Shown piece after piece: positions 17,968 to 59,155 of a DNA stretch of 64,000 nt. Under the pieces are notes generated by a model. It made no database searches, was not told where the DNA came from, and was given only the letters and a program-made list of their open reading frames with translations. A program made the position numbers and the translations under genes. Positions within the stretch are counted from its first letter, which is position 1; each line of letters starts with the position of its first letter. Source of the DNA: Terriglobales bacterium (lineage in GTDB: Bacteria > Acidobacteriota > Terriglobia > Terriglobales > Acidobacteriaceae). Location: assembly GCA_025936825.1 (NCBI GenBank), contig JAICSO010000002.1, positions 310,001 through 374,000 of the forward strand, given 5' to 3'.

Positions 17968-18032
17968 GTGATACCAGCCGTGCAGCGACGGTATGTGCAA
18001 CAGAGGTGATACTAGCCGCGCAGCGGCGGTAT
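17968..18032. repeat. Imperfect direct repeat, two 27-bp units
   Basis: GTGATACCAGCCGTGCAGCG... (17968-17994) and GTGATACTAGCCGCGCAGCG... (18006-18032) are near-identical, offset by 38 bp, and each can fold on itself around the GCNGC core. They lie in the ~370-bp gap between the MgtE-N gene and the transporter gene, which otherwise holds no gene I can support. A further hairpin, GTCCGCTTCAGCGGAC, lies near 18079-18094. Confidence 0.6.
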
Positions 18033-18137
18033 AAGGAAGCCCGGCACGGCAGTGTCGGGGAGGCTAGTAGCAACAAGGAGAGTCCGCTTCAGCGGACGAC
18101 ACCAATAAAGGGCGGCTTGGCACCCAAAGTAGGCAAC

Positions 18138-36031: not shown

Positions 36032-36745
36032 TTATACGGCAGCAGTTCGAGGATGGTAACGTTCGCAAGGGTGCCGGGATAACGGAGTAGGAACTAGGAA
36101 GCAGCTCACAACAACCCTCAGCCCTCAGCCGACAGCCGTCAGGAAAACCTTCAGGGCGGGGTTTGTTCCGCTTGGAAGGAAATGACCCCTGCTGTGTCGT
36201 GTGCGAACGCCTTCGGAAGCCCAGCATCAGCCGATCGGGCCACATTCTCAAAATTAATGCCATTCCGAAAATCAATGTCATGCCAGAAATTAATGTCATT
36301 CCGACCGAAGCCGGGCGATTCGCTTGCGAACGCCCGGCTGCGTGGAGGAACCTGCTTTTCGTTGGCACGAGGAAATTGGCCGCTTAGCGCACATCCTGCC
36401 GTGCAGGGGCCTAAGAATAAAGTCCGGGGCGTAAGCCCCGGGTAGAAGTGGCAAAAGAGCAAGCTCCGCAGGAGCGAAAGAAGAGTTCTTACACAAAATT
36501 GTGCTTTGAAGAGGCTCGGCTTCAGCCAAGCCGACGACAAAAGCTAGTGAAGATAGAAGCTATTGAAGATTGTCATTCCGAGTCGACGCAGCCGCGCGTG
36601 CGCAGCAATGACGGGACGAACCTGCTTTCAGCTAGAACCTAGTTTGAGAGACGATCCCAACCGCGAAGCGGCGGCACATAAATAGCCCAGGGCGTAAGCC
36701 CTGAGTAGACGTACGAACAGAGCGAGTCCCGCAGGGACGGCACAA
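36032..36745. repeat. Repeat-rich intergenic region
   Basis: About 700 bp without a supportable gene. It holds three tandem 18-bp units of the form AAATTAATGTCATTCCGA (36251-36304), then a TCATTCCGA hairpin repeat (36295-36361). A two-hairpin element follows (GGGGCGTAAGCCCC near 36423-36438 and AGCTCCGCAGGAGC near 36462), then a second TCATTCCGA copy (36572-36630). A second two-hairpin element ends it (CAGGGCGTAAGCCCTG near 36689 and TCCCGCAGGGAC near 36726). Open frames crossing this stretch follow repeat sequence, not coding bias. Confidence 0.75.
36295..36361 (+). repeat. TCATTCCGA hairpin element, copy with GCCGGGCG stem
   Basis: Conserved ends GTCATTCCGACCGA and GTGGAGGAACCTGCTTTTCG enclose a hairpin. 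GCCGGGCG (36310-36317) pairs with CGCCCGGC (36331-36338), and TTCGC pairs with GCGAA around a TT loop. The inverted copy at 54933-54999 keeps the ends and the TTCGC core but has a different, still paired, outer stem. Confidence 0.8.
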
Positions 36746-52141: not shown

Positions 52142-52170
52142 TTGCAACATCCAATCGGGCAAGCGATACT
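52142..52170 (+). promoter_or_regulatory. Candidate promoter of the Cys leader/sulfite reductase transcript
   Basis: TTGCAA (52142-52147) and GATACT (52165-52170) are separated by 17 bp and resemble -35 and -10 hexamers. Transcription would start within a few bases of the leader ORF ATG at 52174, giving an almost leaderless message. No Shine-Dalgarno sequence precedes that ATG, which agrees. Confidence 0.5.
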
Positions 52171-52173
52171 AAT

Positions 52174-52257
52174 ATGGCAATGCTCAAGACCTGTACCCAG
52201 AAGCTGATGGCGTGTTGTTGTTGCGCCTGTTGTGTGCCTTCTGGGGATGGTGAATGA
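52174..52257 (+). CDS. Cysteine-rich leader peptide upstream of sulfite reductase
   Basis: A 27-codon ORF. After MAMLKTCTQKLMA come CCCCACC (residues 14-20, codons 52213-52233), then VPSGDGE and a TGA at 52255-52257. Seven of 27 residues are Cys, six in a run of seven, which is far from chance composition. It lies just upstream of a rho-independent terminator and then of a siroheme reductase gene of sulfur assimilation. Polycysteine leader ORFs acting as cysteine-responsive attenuators are known in mycobacteria; here the role is inferred from content and layout. The stop codon lies within a sequence able to form an alternative hairpin. An ATG two codons downstream (52180) is an alternative start. 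Confidence 0.7.
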   Translation: MAMLKTCTQKLMACCCCACCVPSGDGE

Positions 52258-52299
52258 GCTAAATCGCACTAATATCAAGAGTTAAGCTCATCGCCCACC
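52249..52299 (+). promoter_or_regulatory. Putative antiterminator hairpin of the Cys attenuator
   Basis: ATGAGCT (52254-52260, containing the leader stop codon) pairs perfectly with AGCTCAT (52285-52291), and GGTG (52249-52252) can pair with CACC (52296-52299). The latter bases also form the left arm of the terminator, so the two structures compete. A ribosome stalled at the Cys codons leaves this pairing free; one reaching the stop codon covers it. Confidence 0.55.
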
Positions 52300-52331
52300 G
52301 CCAGAAGCTGGCCGGTGGGTTTTGTGTTTTT
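52294..52331 (+). terminator. Intrinsic terminator between leader peptide and sulfite reductase gene
   Basis: CCCACCGCCAG (52294-52304), loop AAG, CTGGCCGGTGGG (52308-52319) with one bulged C, followed by TTTTGTGTTTTT. It sits 124 bp before the reductase start and 36 bp after the leader stop, the position expected of an attenuator. Confidence 0.8.
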
Positions 52332-52454
52332 GGGAGCGACGAGCAATGAGCAGTGAGCTGTGAGCCAGCAAAACCGAGGTTGCTCACAGGTCATCGCTCG
52401 CCGCTCACAGCTAAGGCCAAACGACCAAGGACGAACGACGAATAGCCGAATTTT

Positions 52455-54737
52455 ATGAAAGCTTCAAACTCCAGCTGGAAAGAGCAACTCACGGGGCGCA
52501 TGCCGGAAGCGCTGGCCCGCGAGATCGACAACTTCGAAACCGAGATCGCGTTGCGCAAGCAGGGCAAGCTCGACGAGAAGCTTTTCGCCGAGACTCGTCT
52601 GCGCCGCGGCGCTTACGGACAGCGCTACGACAACGGTCAGCGCAGCGATGGCCAAAAAGTCCAGAAGCTGAATTTTCCCTCGGCCGATCTCACTAAAGGT
52701 CCGAACACCATGTGGGATGCGCCGGGGATGCAGCGGATCAAGATTCCGGGCGGCGGGCTGAATGCCGCGCAGATCGAGACGCTGGCGGAGCTGGCGGAAG
52801 AGTACTCGGACGGCATCGCGCACATCACCACGCGGCAGGATTTCCAGCTGCATTACGTCCACATTGACGACACGCCCAGCGTGATGCGGCGGCTCGCCGC
52901 CGTGGGGATTACGACGCGCGAGGCTTGCGGCAACTCGGTGCGCAACGTGACGGCGTGCCCGTACGCTGGCGTTTGCCAGGACGAGAGCTTTGACGTCACG
53001 CCCTATTCGAAGGCACTGATGCGGTTCATGCTGGGACATCCGGACTGCCAGAGTTTTGGACGCAAGTTCAAGCCGGCGTTCAGCGGATGCGCGCAGCATG
53101 CGTGCGGGCTGACCAGCTTGCACGATCTGGGAGTGATCGCGAAGAAGCGCGTGAATGAAGCCACGGGCAGGGAAGAGGTTGGCTTCGAAGTGTACGTAGG
53201 CGGCGGGCTCGGAGCGGTGCCGTATCAGGCAAAACTGTTTGAGTCGTTCATCCCCGCGGAGGAGTTGTTGCCGCTGGCGCAGGCGATCTCGCGAGTGTTT
53301 GCGCGGTTAGGCGAAAAGAAGAACCGCAGCCGTGCGCGACTGAAGTTCCTGGTGCAGGACCTCGGGATTGAAAAGTTCCGCGCGTTGGTGCTCGAGGAGC
53401 GAAAGATTCTGCCGCATGATCCGCGGTGGACGGAATTGATCGAAGAGGAATTGAAGACGGTTGAGTCGGCGAAGAATCCCGGCGGGGAACTGCCGGAACT
53501 GGTGTCGATCACGACGGCCTCGCCCGATGCGGAGCCGTTCGCGAAGTGGTTGAGGTCGAACATCCGCCCACAGCGGCAGGCGGGATATGTGACGGTCACG
53601 GTTGTCCTGCCATTGGGCGACATTACGGCAAATCAGTTGCGATCGCTGGCGGACGTCGTGCGACGATTCACGAAGGAGACAATCCGCACGACGGTGGAGC
53701 AGAATTTTGTGATCCGCTGGGTGAGCAAGAAGGATCTGCCGGAACTGTATCGCGCGCTGGATGCGGTGAAGCTGGCTGCGCCCGGCGCAGGGGCGTTGGT
53801 GGACATCGTTTCGTGCCCGGGCACGGATACCTGCAAGCTGGGGATCTCGTCATCGCGAGGATTGGCGGGCGAGTTGCGCAAGCGAGTAAGCGAGGCCAGC
53901 TATCAGGCGGACGAGGCCGTTCGCAATCTGCACATCAAGGTTAGCGGCTGCTTCAACAGTTGCGGACAGCACCACGTCGCCGATATGGGCTTCTATGGCG
54001 TGAGCCGCAAGGTGGCGGGCTATGCAGTGCCGCACTTCCAGGTCGTCCTTGGTGGGGAGTGGGAGCATAACGCCGGGTCGTATGGGACGCCGATTCTGGC
54101 GGTGCCGTCGAAGAACATTCCGCAGGTTGTCAAGCGCCTTACCGACAGCTATGTCGCAGGACGAGAGCCGGGTGAGGCATTCAAGTCGTACATCAAACGA
54201 ACCGGTAAAGCGCAACTTAAAGTATTACTTGAAGATTTAACCAAGCTTCCCGCAGGCGACCGCTCCTACTTCTCCGATTGGGGCGACCCCCGCACCTACA
54301 CCCTCGGGGACATGGGGGATGGGGAGTGCGCGGGCGAGGTGGTTTCGCCTGTCGACTTTGGATTGGCCGCGGCGGAGAGGGAATTGTTCGACGCACAGTT
54401 GGCGCTGGAAAAGGGCGAGGCGCAGAAGGCCAGCGTGGGCGCGTACAGGGCTATGCTGAATGCGGCGCGGGCGCTCGTGCTGGCAGAAAATCCCGATATC
54501 AAGGAAAACGCGGACCAGATTGTGGCGGAGTTCCGCACGCGGTATTACGACACGCAGAAGTTTTGGGACCCGTTTGCGGGAGGGAAGTTCGGGAACTACT
54601 TGTTCGACGCGCACGCGAAGGCTGGACAGGCATACAGCGAGGAGTCCAGTCGGTATCTGATCGAAGAGGCACAGTTGTTCATTGACGCCGCGCATAGTTG
54701 CAATAACAAGCTGAGTATAACGGCGATAGGAGCGTAG
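52455..54737 (+). CDS. Siroheme nitrite/sulfite reductase with C-terminal HEPN-like extension
   Basis: A 760-residue protein. Residues ~30-590 form the duplicated nitrite/sulfite reductase fold: HITTRQDFQLHYV, ACGNSVRNVTACPY and the siroheme/[4Fe-4S] ligands Cys454, Cys460 (CPGTDTC), Cys499 and Cys503 (GCFNSC). It reduces sulfite to sulfide or nitrite to ammonia with ferredoxin or a similar donor; the upstream Cys-rich leader favours sulfite. Beyond ~630 an extra helical domain (AERELFDAQLALEKGEAQKA, GAYRAMLNAARALVLAENPD, EEAQLFIDAAHSCNN) resembles HEPN domains, though no RxxxxH RNase motif is visible. Normal homologues are about 500-600 residues. Confidence 0.9.
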   Translation: MKASNSSWKEQLTGRMPEALAREIDNFETEIALRKQGKLDEKLFAETRLRRGAYGQRYDNGQRSDGQKVQKLNFPSADLTKGPNTMWDAPGMQRIKIPGGGLNAAQIETLAELAEEYSDGIAHITTRQDFQLHYVHIDDTPSVMRRLAAVGITTREACGNSVRNVTACPYAGVCQDESFDVTPYSKALMRFMLGHPDCQSFGRKFKPAFSGCAQHACGLTSLHDLGVIAKKRVNEATGREEVGFEVYVGGGLGAVPYQAKLFESFIPAEELLPLAQAISRVFARLGEKKNRSRARLKFLVQDLGIEKFRALVLEERKILPHDPRWTELIEEELKTVESAKNPGGELPELVSITTASPDAEPFAKWLRSNIRPQRQAGYVTVTVVLPLGDITANQLRSLADVVRRFTKETIRTTVEQNFVIRWVSKKDLPELYRALDAVKLAAPGAGALVDIVSCPGTDTCKLGISSSRGLAGELRKRVSEASYQADEAVRNLHIKVSGCFNSCGQHHVADMGFYGVSRKVAGYAVPHFQVVLGGEWEHNAGSYGTPILAVPSKNIPQVVKRLTDSYVAGREPGEAFKSYIKRTGKAQLKVLLEDLTKLPAGDRSYFSDWGDPRTYTLGDMGDGECAGEVVSPVDFGLAAAERELFDAQLALEKGEAQKASVGAYRAMLNAARALVLAENPDIKENADQIVAEFRTRYYDTQKFWDPFAGGKFGNYLFDAHAKAGQAYSEESSRYLIEEAQLFIDAAHSCNNKLSITAIGA

Positions 54738-55069: not shown

Positions 55070-55705
55070 GTGGTTTTGACAAATACAAAGGGCGTTCTGG
55101 ATTACGAGGTGGGACGGGTGGCGATCGAGCTACAGCACATCAATGTGAAGCTGATGGTGAAGGATCCGGAGAATGTTGATCTGGAGGCCGTGGTGCCGGT
55201 GTTCCACACGTGGATTCAGGGGCAGATCTTCGATGAGCTGCTGCTCGATGTAGCCGACTATAGCCACGTGCCTGACGGGCCGGGGATCGTTCTGATCGGG
55301 CATGAGGCTGACTATGCGCTCGACAACACCGATGGCCGCCTCGGCGTGCGTTATAACCGCAAGGCGCCATGGCCGGGTAGGAATCGGGAGCGGCTCGCGC
55401 AGGCGACGCGGGCTGCGCTCAGCGCATTCGAGCGGCTGGAGCAAGACTTCAACTTTCACTTTAACAATCGGGAAATTGAGATTGTCATTAACGATCGTCT
55501 GCTGGCGCCCAATAACCAAGCCGCCCGCAAGGCGGCAGAACCGGAGTTGAGGGCCTTCCTGGATCAACTCTTTTCCGGTGAGAAGTATTCGCTCGCGTAT
55601 CCTTCGGAACCGCGGAGGCTGTTTGGTGTGACCGTAATCGCCGCAAGGGAATTCTCAACTCAGGAACTGCTGGCGAACCTTAGCATTCCCGTCGATGCCG
55701 CGTAA
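55070..55705 (+). CDS. Conserved-looking hypothetical protein
   Basis: A 211-residue soluble protein, acidic and without membrane segments. It has VPVFHTWIQGQIFDELLLDVADYSHVPDGPGIVLIGHEADYALD as its most distinctive region (residues about 42-85), then RYNRKAPWPGRNRERLAQAT and a helical part. The alternating hydrophobic pattern suggests an alpha/beta fold. I recall no family name. The start is uncertain: GTG 55070 and TTG 55076 are close, and a TTGACA overlaps the latter. It lies after the sulfite reductase gene but about 330 bp of repeats separates them. Confidence 0.6.
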   Translation: MVLTNTKGVLDYEVGRVAIELQHINVKLMVKDPENVDLEAVVPVFHTWIQGQIFDELLLDVADYSHVPDGPGIVLIGHEADYALDNTDGRLGVRYNRKAPWPGRNRERLAQATRAALSAFERLEQDFNFHFNNREIEIVINDRLLAPNNQAARKAAEPELRAFLDQLFSGEKYSLAYPSEPRRLFGVTVIAAREFSTQELLANLSIPVDAA

Positions 55706-59019: not shown

Positions 59020-59090
59020 GCTCCTACGGAGCTTGCTCTCTCCTGCTTCTACCCGGGGCTCACGCCCCGGGCTCCATTCTTGCGCCGCTC
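59020..59090 (-). repeat. Two-hairpin intergenic element (inverted copy)
   Basis: GCTCCTACGGAGCTTGCTCT and CCCGGGGCTCACGCCCCGGG give two adjacent hairpins. In inverted order they match the pairs near 36421-36476 and 36688-36743. Confidence 0.75.
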
Positions 59091-59155
59091 CGCCGCTTAC
59101 ATCAGAACTTTCTATGCGCGTGCACGCTTCTACCAACGTCTTAGGGTATCGACCT

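Follow-up and report, generated by a model that had tools for sequence, protein, structure and literature searches.

Leaderless short open reading frames (ORFs) with runs of cysteine codons have been reported as cysteine-responsive in mycobacteria (Canestrari 2020, as cited in accessible passages of PMC13236596, PMC9094748 and PMC9031893), and the first-pass annotation of the present locus was right to call cysteine attenuators of this kind known there. The excerpted text of a comparative study notes Cys leader peptides without conserved terminators in Actinobacteria and reports no conserved terminator hairpins for the mycobacterial Cys leaders (Seliverstov 2005, PMC1262725). In Rhodobacterales, the uORFC-8-2 motif before cysS is predicted, according to the available portion of its description, to be a Cys attenuator with an intrinsic terminator (PMC8632094). 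Leaderless genes are predicted at a mean of 13.3% in three genomes of Acidobacteria (PMC3160421, in excerpt). The literature searched, with most subscription journals outside its coverage, yielded no cysteine attenuator in Acidobacteriota.

Here we analysed a 64-kb stretch of acidobacterial DNA (64,000 nucleotides; the window), in which a cysteine-rich leader ORF and a terminator precede a reductase gene. We consider it very probable that this element acts as a transcription attenuator that responds to cysteine and stands before a gene for assimilatory sulfite reductase. This is the model that the first-pass annotation had put forward, and conservation, reading frame, promoter position, alternative pairing and gene context support it at the level of sequence.

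Leader, terminator and alternative pairings in the window

The features of the locus are as follows.

52142–52147, forward strand: putative −35-like box TTGCAA
52165–52170, forward strand: putative −10-like box GATACT, after a 17-nt spacer
52174–52257, forward strand: leader ORF as first annotated, 27 codons, MAMLKTCTQKLMACCCCACCVPSGDGE
52180–52257, forward strand: Cys leader ORF from the preferred start ATG 52180, 25 codons, predicted (nearly) leaderless, MLKTCTQKLMACCCCACCVPSGDGE
52196–52203, forward strand: region 1 core, 5′ arm of the protector hairpin, CCCAGAAG
52213–52233, forward strand: control codons, Cys ×4, Ala, Cys ×2 (CCCCACC)
52237–52261, forward strand: region 2, partner of region 1 or region 3, including the stop codon
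52255–52257, forward strand: leader stop codon, within ATGAGCT (52254–52260)
52285–52291, forward strand: AGCTCAT, pairing with ATGAGCT at 52254–52260
52285–52307, forward strand: region 3, from AGCTCAT through the terminator left arm CCCACCGCCAG
52294–52331, forward strand: intrinsic terminator, CCCACCGCCAG / CTGGCCGGTGGG and a U-rich tail
52296–52299, forward strand: CACC in the terminator left arm
52455–54737, forward strand: siroheme NIR_SIR reductase resembling NirA, 760 aa

The positions originally assigned to the ORF, its Cys codons and stop, AGCTCAT, CACC and the terminator all agree with the sequence. The Cys run and the stop of the annotated ORF stand, and only its start at 52174 gives way to a likelier one. 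The top-scoring promoter match 5′ of the leader is TTGCAA-N17-GATACT, ending at 52170, and the leader frame holds two ATGs near its start, at 52174 and 52180, which lie 3 and 9 nt past the −10-like box; the former is probably too close to the box to be transcribed. In three relatives (L065, L066 and L067) the ATG at 52180 is kept and, by eye, there is no ATG at the position of 52174; in L065 and L067 an in-frame TAG directly precedes the retained ATG (by eye). The GATACT box is retained in L064–L067. We prefer ATG 52180 because of its 9-nt distance from the −10 box and its retention in L065, L066 and L067, and the leader of the window probably starts there with little or no 5′ UTR.

The terminator hairpin with its flanks has a folding energy of −25.3 kcal/mol, and the segment 52170–52340 folds better than its shuffled versions (z = −2.57; 3/200 equally good). 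The antiterminator proposed at first, ATGAGCT with AGCTCAT and the adjoining GGTG with CACC, is present but incomplete, as the pairing extends to CTTCTGG (52238–52244) with CCAGAAG (52301–52307), a part that had been missed. The whole pairing of region 2 with region 3 (2:3; 52237–52261 with 52285–52307) amounts to −24.4 kcal/mol, or −30.8 kcal/mol with wider segments. A third arm, CCCAGAAG at 52196–52203, pairs with CTTCTGGG at 52238–52245 to give, when the RNA is folded unbound, a protector hairpin (1:2), so that the protector/antiterminator/terminator layout is seen in both sequence and folding.

From the ORF, its frame and conservation, the alternative pairings and the gene context, we infer the following course of transcription start, stalling, termination and cysteine response. 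The transcript would begin no more than a few bases from AUG 52180, the 5′ AUG on which a ribosome would then initiate. With plentiful Cys-tRNA, the ribosome would reach the stop at 52255–52257 and cover region 2, region 3 would enter the terminator stem, and transcription would stop near 52331. With scarce Cys-tRNA, the ribosome would stall on the first Cys codons after 52213 and leave region 2 free to pair with region 3 (52285–52307), and RNA polymerase would enter the reductase gene. If no ribosome were loaded, region 1 would capture region 2 and the terminator would form. The leader and terminator thus appear designed such that sulfite reductase would be switched on only under cysteine shortage.

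The product of the regulated gene contains two NIR_SIR and two NIR_SIR_ferr stretches. It scores below every NCBIfam cut-off, with the NirA model scoring best, and its best solved structure is 1zj8, whose entry name is probable ferredoxin-dependent nitrite reductase NirA; in M. tuberculosis this protein functions as a sulfite reductase. The gene context points to an assimilatory sulfite reductase. The protein continues for ~160 residues past the reductase matches (~54255–54737; the PRK13504 match ends at residue 586), and 3′ of the gene, on the same strand, lies a 211-aa ORF (55070–55705) with no Pfam or NCBIfam match. The gap of about 120 nt between the terminator end and the reductase start holds inverted copies of a GAGCAGTGAGCTGTGAGC-like sequence (52333–52412), and other hairpin-like repeats occupy the equivalent gap in L062, L066 and L067 (by eye), as if the gap were a repeat insertion site. 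Elsewhere in the window, four Acido-Lenti-1 RNAs were found (2240–2285, 18014–18059, 36659–36705 and 59052–59097).

Leaders ahead of related reductase genes

Following the suggestion that came with the annotation, we searched for Cys-run ORFs upstream of siroheme reductase genes in Acidobacteriota. The best 80 of 119 reductase relatives were taken from named genome contigs, and 77 loci, in which the match begins at least 150 bases into the locus, were tested for an ORF no longer than 60 codons that contains CC and, within six codons, three or more Cys, and that has a U-tailed hairpin within 110 nt downstream. According to the record titles, 47 loci were labelled Acidobacteriota and 30 carried other labels. 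Among these best relatives, a Cys-run ORF was present in 28/47 Acidobacteriota-labelled loci and was accompanied by a terminator in 26/47, with 0/47 in both the reverse-strand and the gene-body controls; the corresponding numbers for the other labels were 4/30 and 2/30, with controls at 0/30. The two positives with other labels (L135 and L141), in records labelled Proteobacteria and Chloroflexi, reflect either binning errors or spread to other phyla. The remaining 21/47 Acidobacteriota-labelled loci gave no ORF with terminator by this test, including L068, which is 75% identical to the window protein; L065 and L071 fail the test yet have a Cys-rich ORF. An initial upstream scan had given 41/90 forward versus 8/90 reverse, numbers that include duplicates and the misoriented minus-strand loci L003, L004, L007 and L011, all four of which are left out of the 47 and 30 loci; their contigs match those of L063, L062, L066 and L070 in length.

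To compare the RNA pairings, 112 candidate loci were reduced to 59 with ORF and terminator, 54 leaders, and finally 39 leaders under 80% identical, after L194, L195, L198, L202 and L205, which repeat other loci, and one of the two L141 ORFs had been dropped. Region 2 was defined as the segment that follows the Cys run and extends 9 nt beyond the stop; region 3 was set to end at the terminator apex. In contrasts that the relatedness of the leaders counteracts and that a common base composition, partly controlled by shuffles, could favour, a leader's own partner paired better than foreign ones for both 2:3 (−21.7 versus −17.5 kcal/mol, 39 leaders) and 1:2 (−23.4 versus −19.8 kcal/mol, n = 38, leaving out L112), each with 0/5000 permutations. 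When region 2 was mononucleotide-shuffled, the true 2:3 pairing had a median z of −2.0 and was better by at least 1 SD in 34/39 leaders and by at least 2 SD in 20/39. The median leader's own region 3 was equalled or beaten by 15% of all region 3s, and the 1:2 pairing was more than 2 SD better than shuffled in only 12/39.

Folding with a ribosome mask, a check that had been proposed for the footprint, gave a mean terminator pair probability in the window leader of 0.23 with the ribosome masking the first Cys codon, 0.78 at the last Cys, 0.92 at the stop and 0.88 without a ribosome. The window leader shifts clearly upon a first-Cys stall and not upon a last-Cys stall, but the shift from first Cys to stop exceeded 0.3 at equilibrium in only 4/38 leaders and did not do so in the other 34; in 30/38, a ribosome on the first Cys codon left the terminator probability at 0.80 or above. 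Among E. coli attenuators, those of thr, leu, trp and his gave 0.95–0.97 at the first control codon and shifted by at most 0.12. Because these known attenuators also barely shift, the equilibrium measure does not discriminate, and we did not rely on it to judge the switch. In 35/38 leaders, region 2 occupies more than 0.3 of the left arm as long as the right arm has yet to be made; the value is 0.81 in the window leader and 0.46–0.62 in the four E. coli attenuators, for which any upstream partner was counted, so that the two rest on slightly different partner definitions. Since equilibrium shifts are small, yet region 2 takes the left arm early, the decision between the structures is probably kinetic in this folding model.

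The nearly leaderless character ascribed to the ORF fits 26/38 scanned leaders, in all of which the transcription starts are predicted ones: 23/38 have an in-frame ATG 6–14 nt past the best −10 match and 3 more have a GTG. The other 12/38, several peroxiredoxin leaders among them, do not fit this arrangement. Upstream of the Cys runs, the top promoter score averaged 9.8 versus 7.9 (SD 0.84) in shuffles, and TTGACA with a spacer of 16–18 was seen in many relatives.

These leaders could instead act on translation, in that a Cys stall would free a ribosome-binding site or otherwise drive translation of the reductase while the hairpin would be incidental. Mycobacterial leaderless poly-Cys ORFs are described as acting on translation in passages of a review and a 2026 paper, and the gene begins only ~20 nt past the terminator in several relatives, where a hairpin could affect translation. 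We regard this reading as unlikely, because a U-tailed hairpin follows 26 of the 28 Acidobacteriota-labelled Cys-run ORFs, the left arm of the hairpin is the very partner of region 2, and the window hairpin ends well short of the reductase start.

Leaders ahead of other sulfur genes and a peroxiredoxin

The attenuator reading was examined further with a pattern that has no ORF criterion, TGTTGYTGY-N35-65-CCCACC-N6-36-GGTGGGTTTT. It was found in 39/299 genomes of the class, whereas the reversed pattern was found in 0/299, and at 37/39 pattern loci what follows is a sulfur gene or one for a 1-Cys peroxiredoxin. The genes behind the pattern were distributed as follows.

nirA-type reductase: 11 loci
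second NIR/SIR family: 4 loci
TauE/SafE (TSUP) permease: 3 loci, one then cysH, one then cysD-cysN
siroheme synthase: 1 locus
rhodanese: 1 locus
1-Cys peroxiredoxin: 17 loci
short-chain dehydrogenase: 1 locus, 231 nt away
nothing near: 1 locus

Pfam searches covered a single representative of each of TSUP, siroheme synthase (only the NAD-binding domain was matched), rhodanese, the second NIR/SIR and the short-chain dehydrogenase, as well as on the reductase and peroxiredoxin of the window's genome; the remaining loci were assigned by eye from translations. L201/L202 and L204/L205 are near-identical, and the window's own reductase leader, with a gap of 72, is missed by the pattern. In a 297-genome sample of the phylum, the pattern occurred in 8 genomes, all in the window's family, and in none of another class; because the pattern is tuned to CCCACC...GGTGGG terminators, this is an absence of that form only. 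One locus, L230 (G405), combines a Cys leader of the peroxiredoxin type with a terminator, yet the 3.5 kb downstream lack a peroxiredoxin gene; it is possibly an orphan left by gene loss.

Three other leaders were seen in the window's genome. The first, MRAFCMPCCCCCTRAPVCG, precedes the 1-Cys peroxiredoxin and has TTGACG-N17-TATCCT-N6-ATG and a terminator. The second, MNASRKSCCQCCFCCCPCLHTGMRKLLT, precedes siroheme synthase (Sirohm_synth_M), a tetrapyrrole methylase and cysH, the only PAPS_reduct match in the genome; it has TTGACA-N18-TACGAT-N11-ATG, a terminator by eye and a fold z of −3.67, and three same-genus relatives (L335–L337) have matching leaders with terminators by eye. The third, MIHCGLHLLCCCLCAGCAD, precedes cysK (TIGR01136 above cut-off) and has a likely terminator and a weak fold z of −1.34; it is perhaps not leaderless, because an SD-like GAGGAG is present. 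The best same-genus matches to cysK are three, at 44–45% identity, and cysK probably belongs to the leader-controlled set, as far as its sequence tells. The GTG-start ORF VLTFHDYCCCCCR before sat-APS kinase (L045, minus strand 1536–1495), seven nt past a GATACT box, was not counted, as no terminator was seen there and the ORF was absent from 6 same-genus loci; a possible hairpin CTACCT...AGGTA at this locus could hide the Shine-Dalgarno site, which would mean translational control. Altogether 75 distinct TGY4 places were taken up in this genome, 31 of them in open frames of up to 110 codons, and at three places that were read (L047, L143 and L036) no attenuator was visible. Leaders of the same design seem to precede sulfite reductases, siroheme synthase-cysH, TSUP permease with cysH or cysDN, rhodanese and 1-Cys peroxiredoxin in the class.

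A close homologue of the peroxiredoxin (E 1e-60) was present in 92/200 class genomes. Of 94 listed places, 83 were scanned, the rest being ten already pattern-positive and G323, and 21/83 upstream regions contained a Cys-run ORF, compared with 2 on the reverse strand. Tallied by genome, a leader with a terminator-like end, judged by a loose text test or, for the ten pattern-positive places, by folding, was present in 26/33 genomes of the window's own family and in 0/58 examined genomes outside it, three of which had a Cys-rich ORF alone. L294 meets the text test and was judged negative by eye, and G128 and G335 have a second peroxiredoxin copy without the leader. One tentative and rather doubtful interpretation is that Cys-tRNA charging, read through leaderless poly-Cys attenuators, may serve as a general thiol-status sensor in this family, covering sulfate assimilation and the 1-Cys peroxiredoxin. 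If so, oxidative loss of cysteine would lead via ribosome stalling to peroxide removal without a redox-sensing transcription factor, and the peroxiredoxin branch suggests such a ribosome-based readout of thiol stress.

The frequency of peroxiredoxin leaders could also be taken to mean that the signal is not Cys-tRNA: ribosome stalling, or an effect in trans, would come from the Cys-rich peptide as it emerges, either by itself or under the influence of metal or oxidation, since Cys runs could bind metal or become oxidised. This appears marginally less likely than the translational reading, as the leaders listed have the Cys run alone in common, their N-termini being diverse and their C-termini following the RNA pairing, and the run varies in length and spacing (CCC, CCCCCC, CCQCCFCCCPC). 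That the UGUUGU repeats are a protein-binding RNA site with an incidental ORF is very improbable even though TGT is the commoner of the two Cys codons (122 TGT and 57 TGC, n = 179), because runs mixing in TGC are used in peroxiredoxin leaders as well and, in 19/19 testable loci, the first ATG opens an uninterrupted frame that includes the Cys run. These are the 19 of 37 distinct pattern loci, some of them mutually related, that score 9.5 or more for the promoter and have an ATG 4–16 nt past the −10 box.

Comparison with known attenuators

No Rfam family attains its gathering score at the window locus. The candidate attenuator shares with uORFC-8-2 a predicted ribosome-mediated response to Cys that ends in an intrinsic terminator, but the motif, in the available description, has two tandem Cys codons and two stems and is found before cysS only, in alphaproteobacteria. 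The present leaders have longer Cys runs, a start near the promoter, and sulfate-assimilation and peroxiredoxin genes behind them; we rejected an identification with uORFC-8-2, since gene and layout differ. The Cys leader peptides of P. acnes and B. longum likewise have Cys codon runs before cys or cbs genes, but the excerpted source reports other attenuator elements missing there (PMC1262725).

What connects the mycobacterial elements with the present ones is a short ORF before operons in which Cys codons directly follow one another, and which is leaderless there and may be nearly so here. In mycobacteria, control is translational according to the accessible text of the citing papers, whereas here a protector/antiterminator/terminator follows, in another phylum and ahead of another gene set.

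The E. coli thr, leu, trp and his leaders have 5′ UTRs with Shine-Dalgarno sites. Their attenuators respond to other amino acids but share with the present element the 1:2, 2:3 and 3:4 layout and a left arm held early by upstream RNA. With a predicted leaderless ORF joined to termination control, one has to ask how RNA polymerase and a ribosome that loads at the 5′ end would stay synchronised. As judged from sequence, the element would work like a classical amino-acid attenuator, and its terminator would set it apart from the mycobacterial type; what appears new is the joining of a probably leaderless Cys ORF to a classical terminator, together with the regulon.
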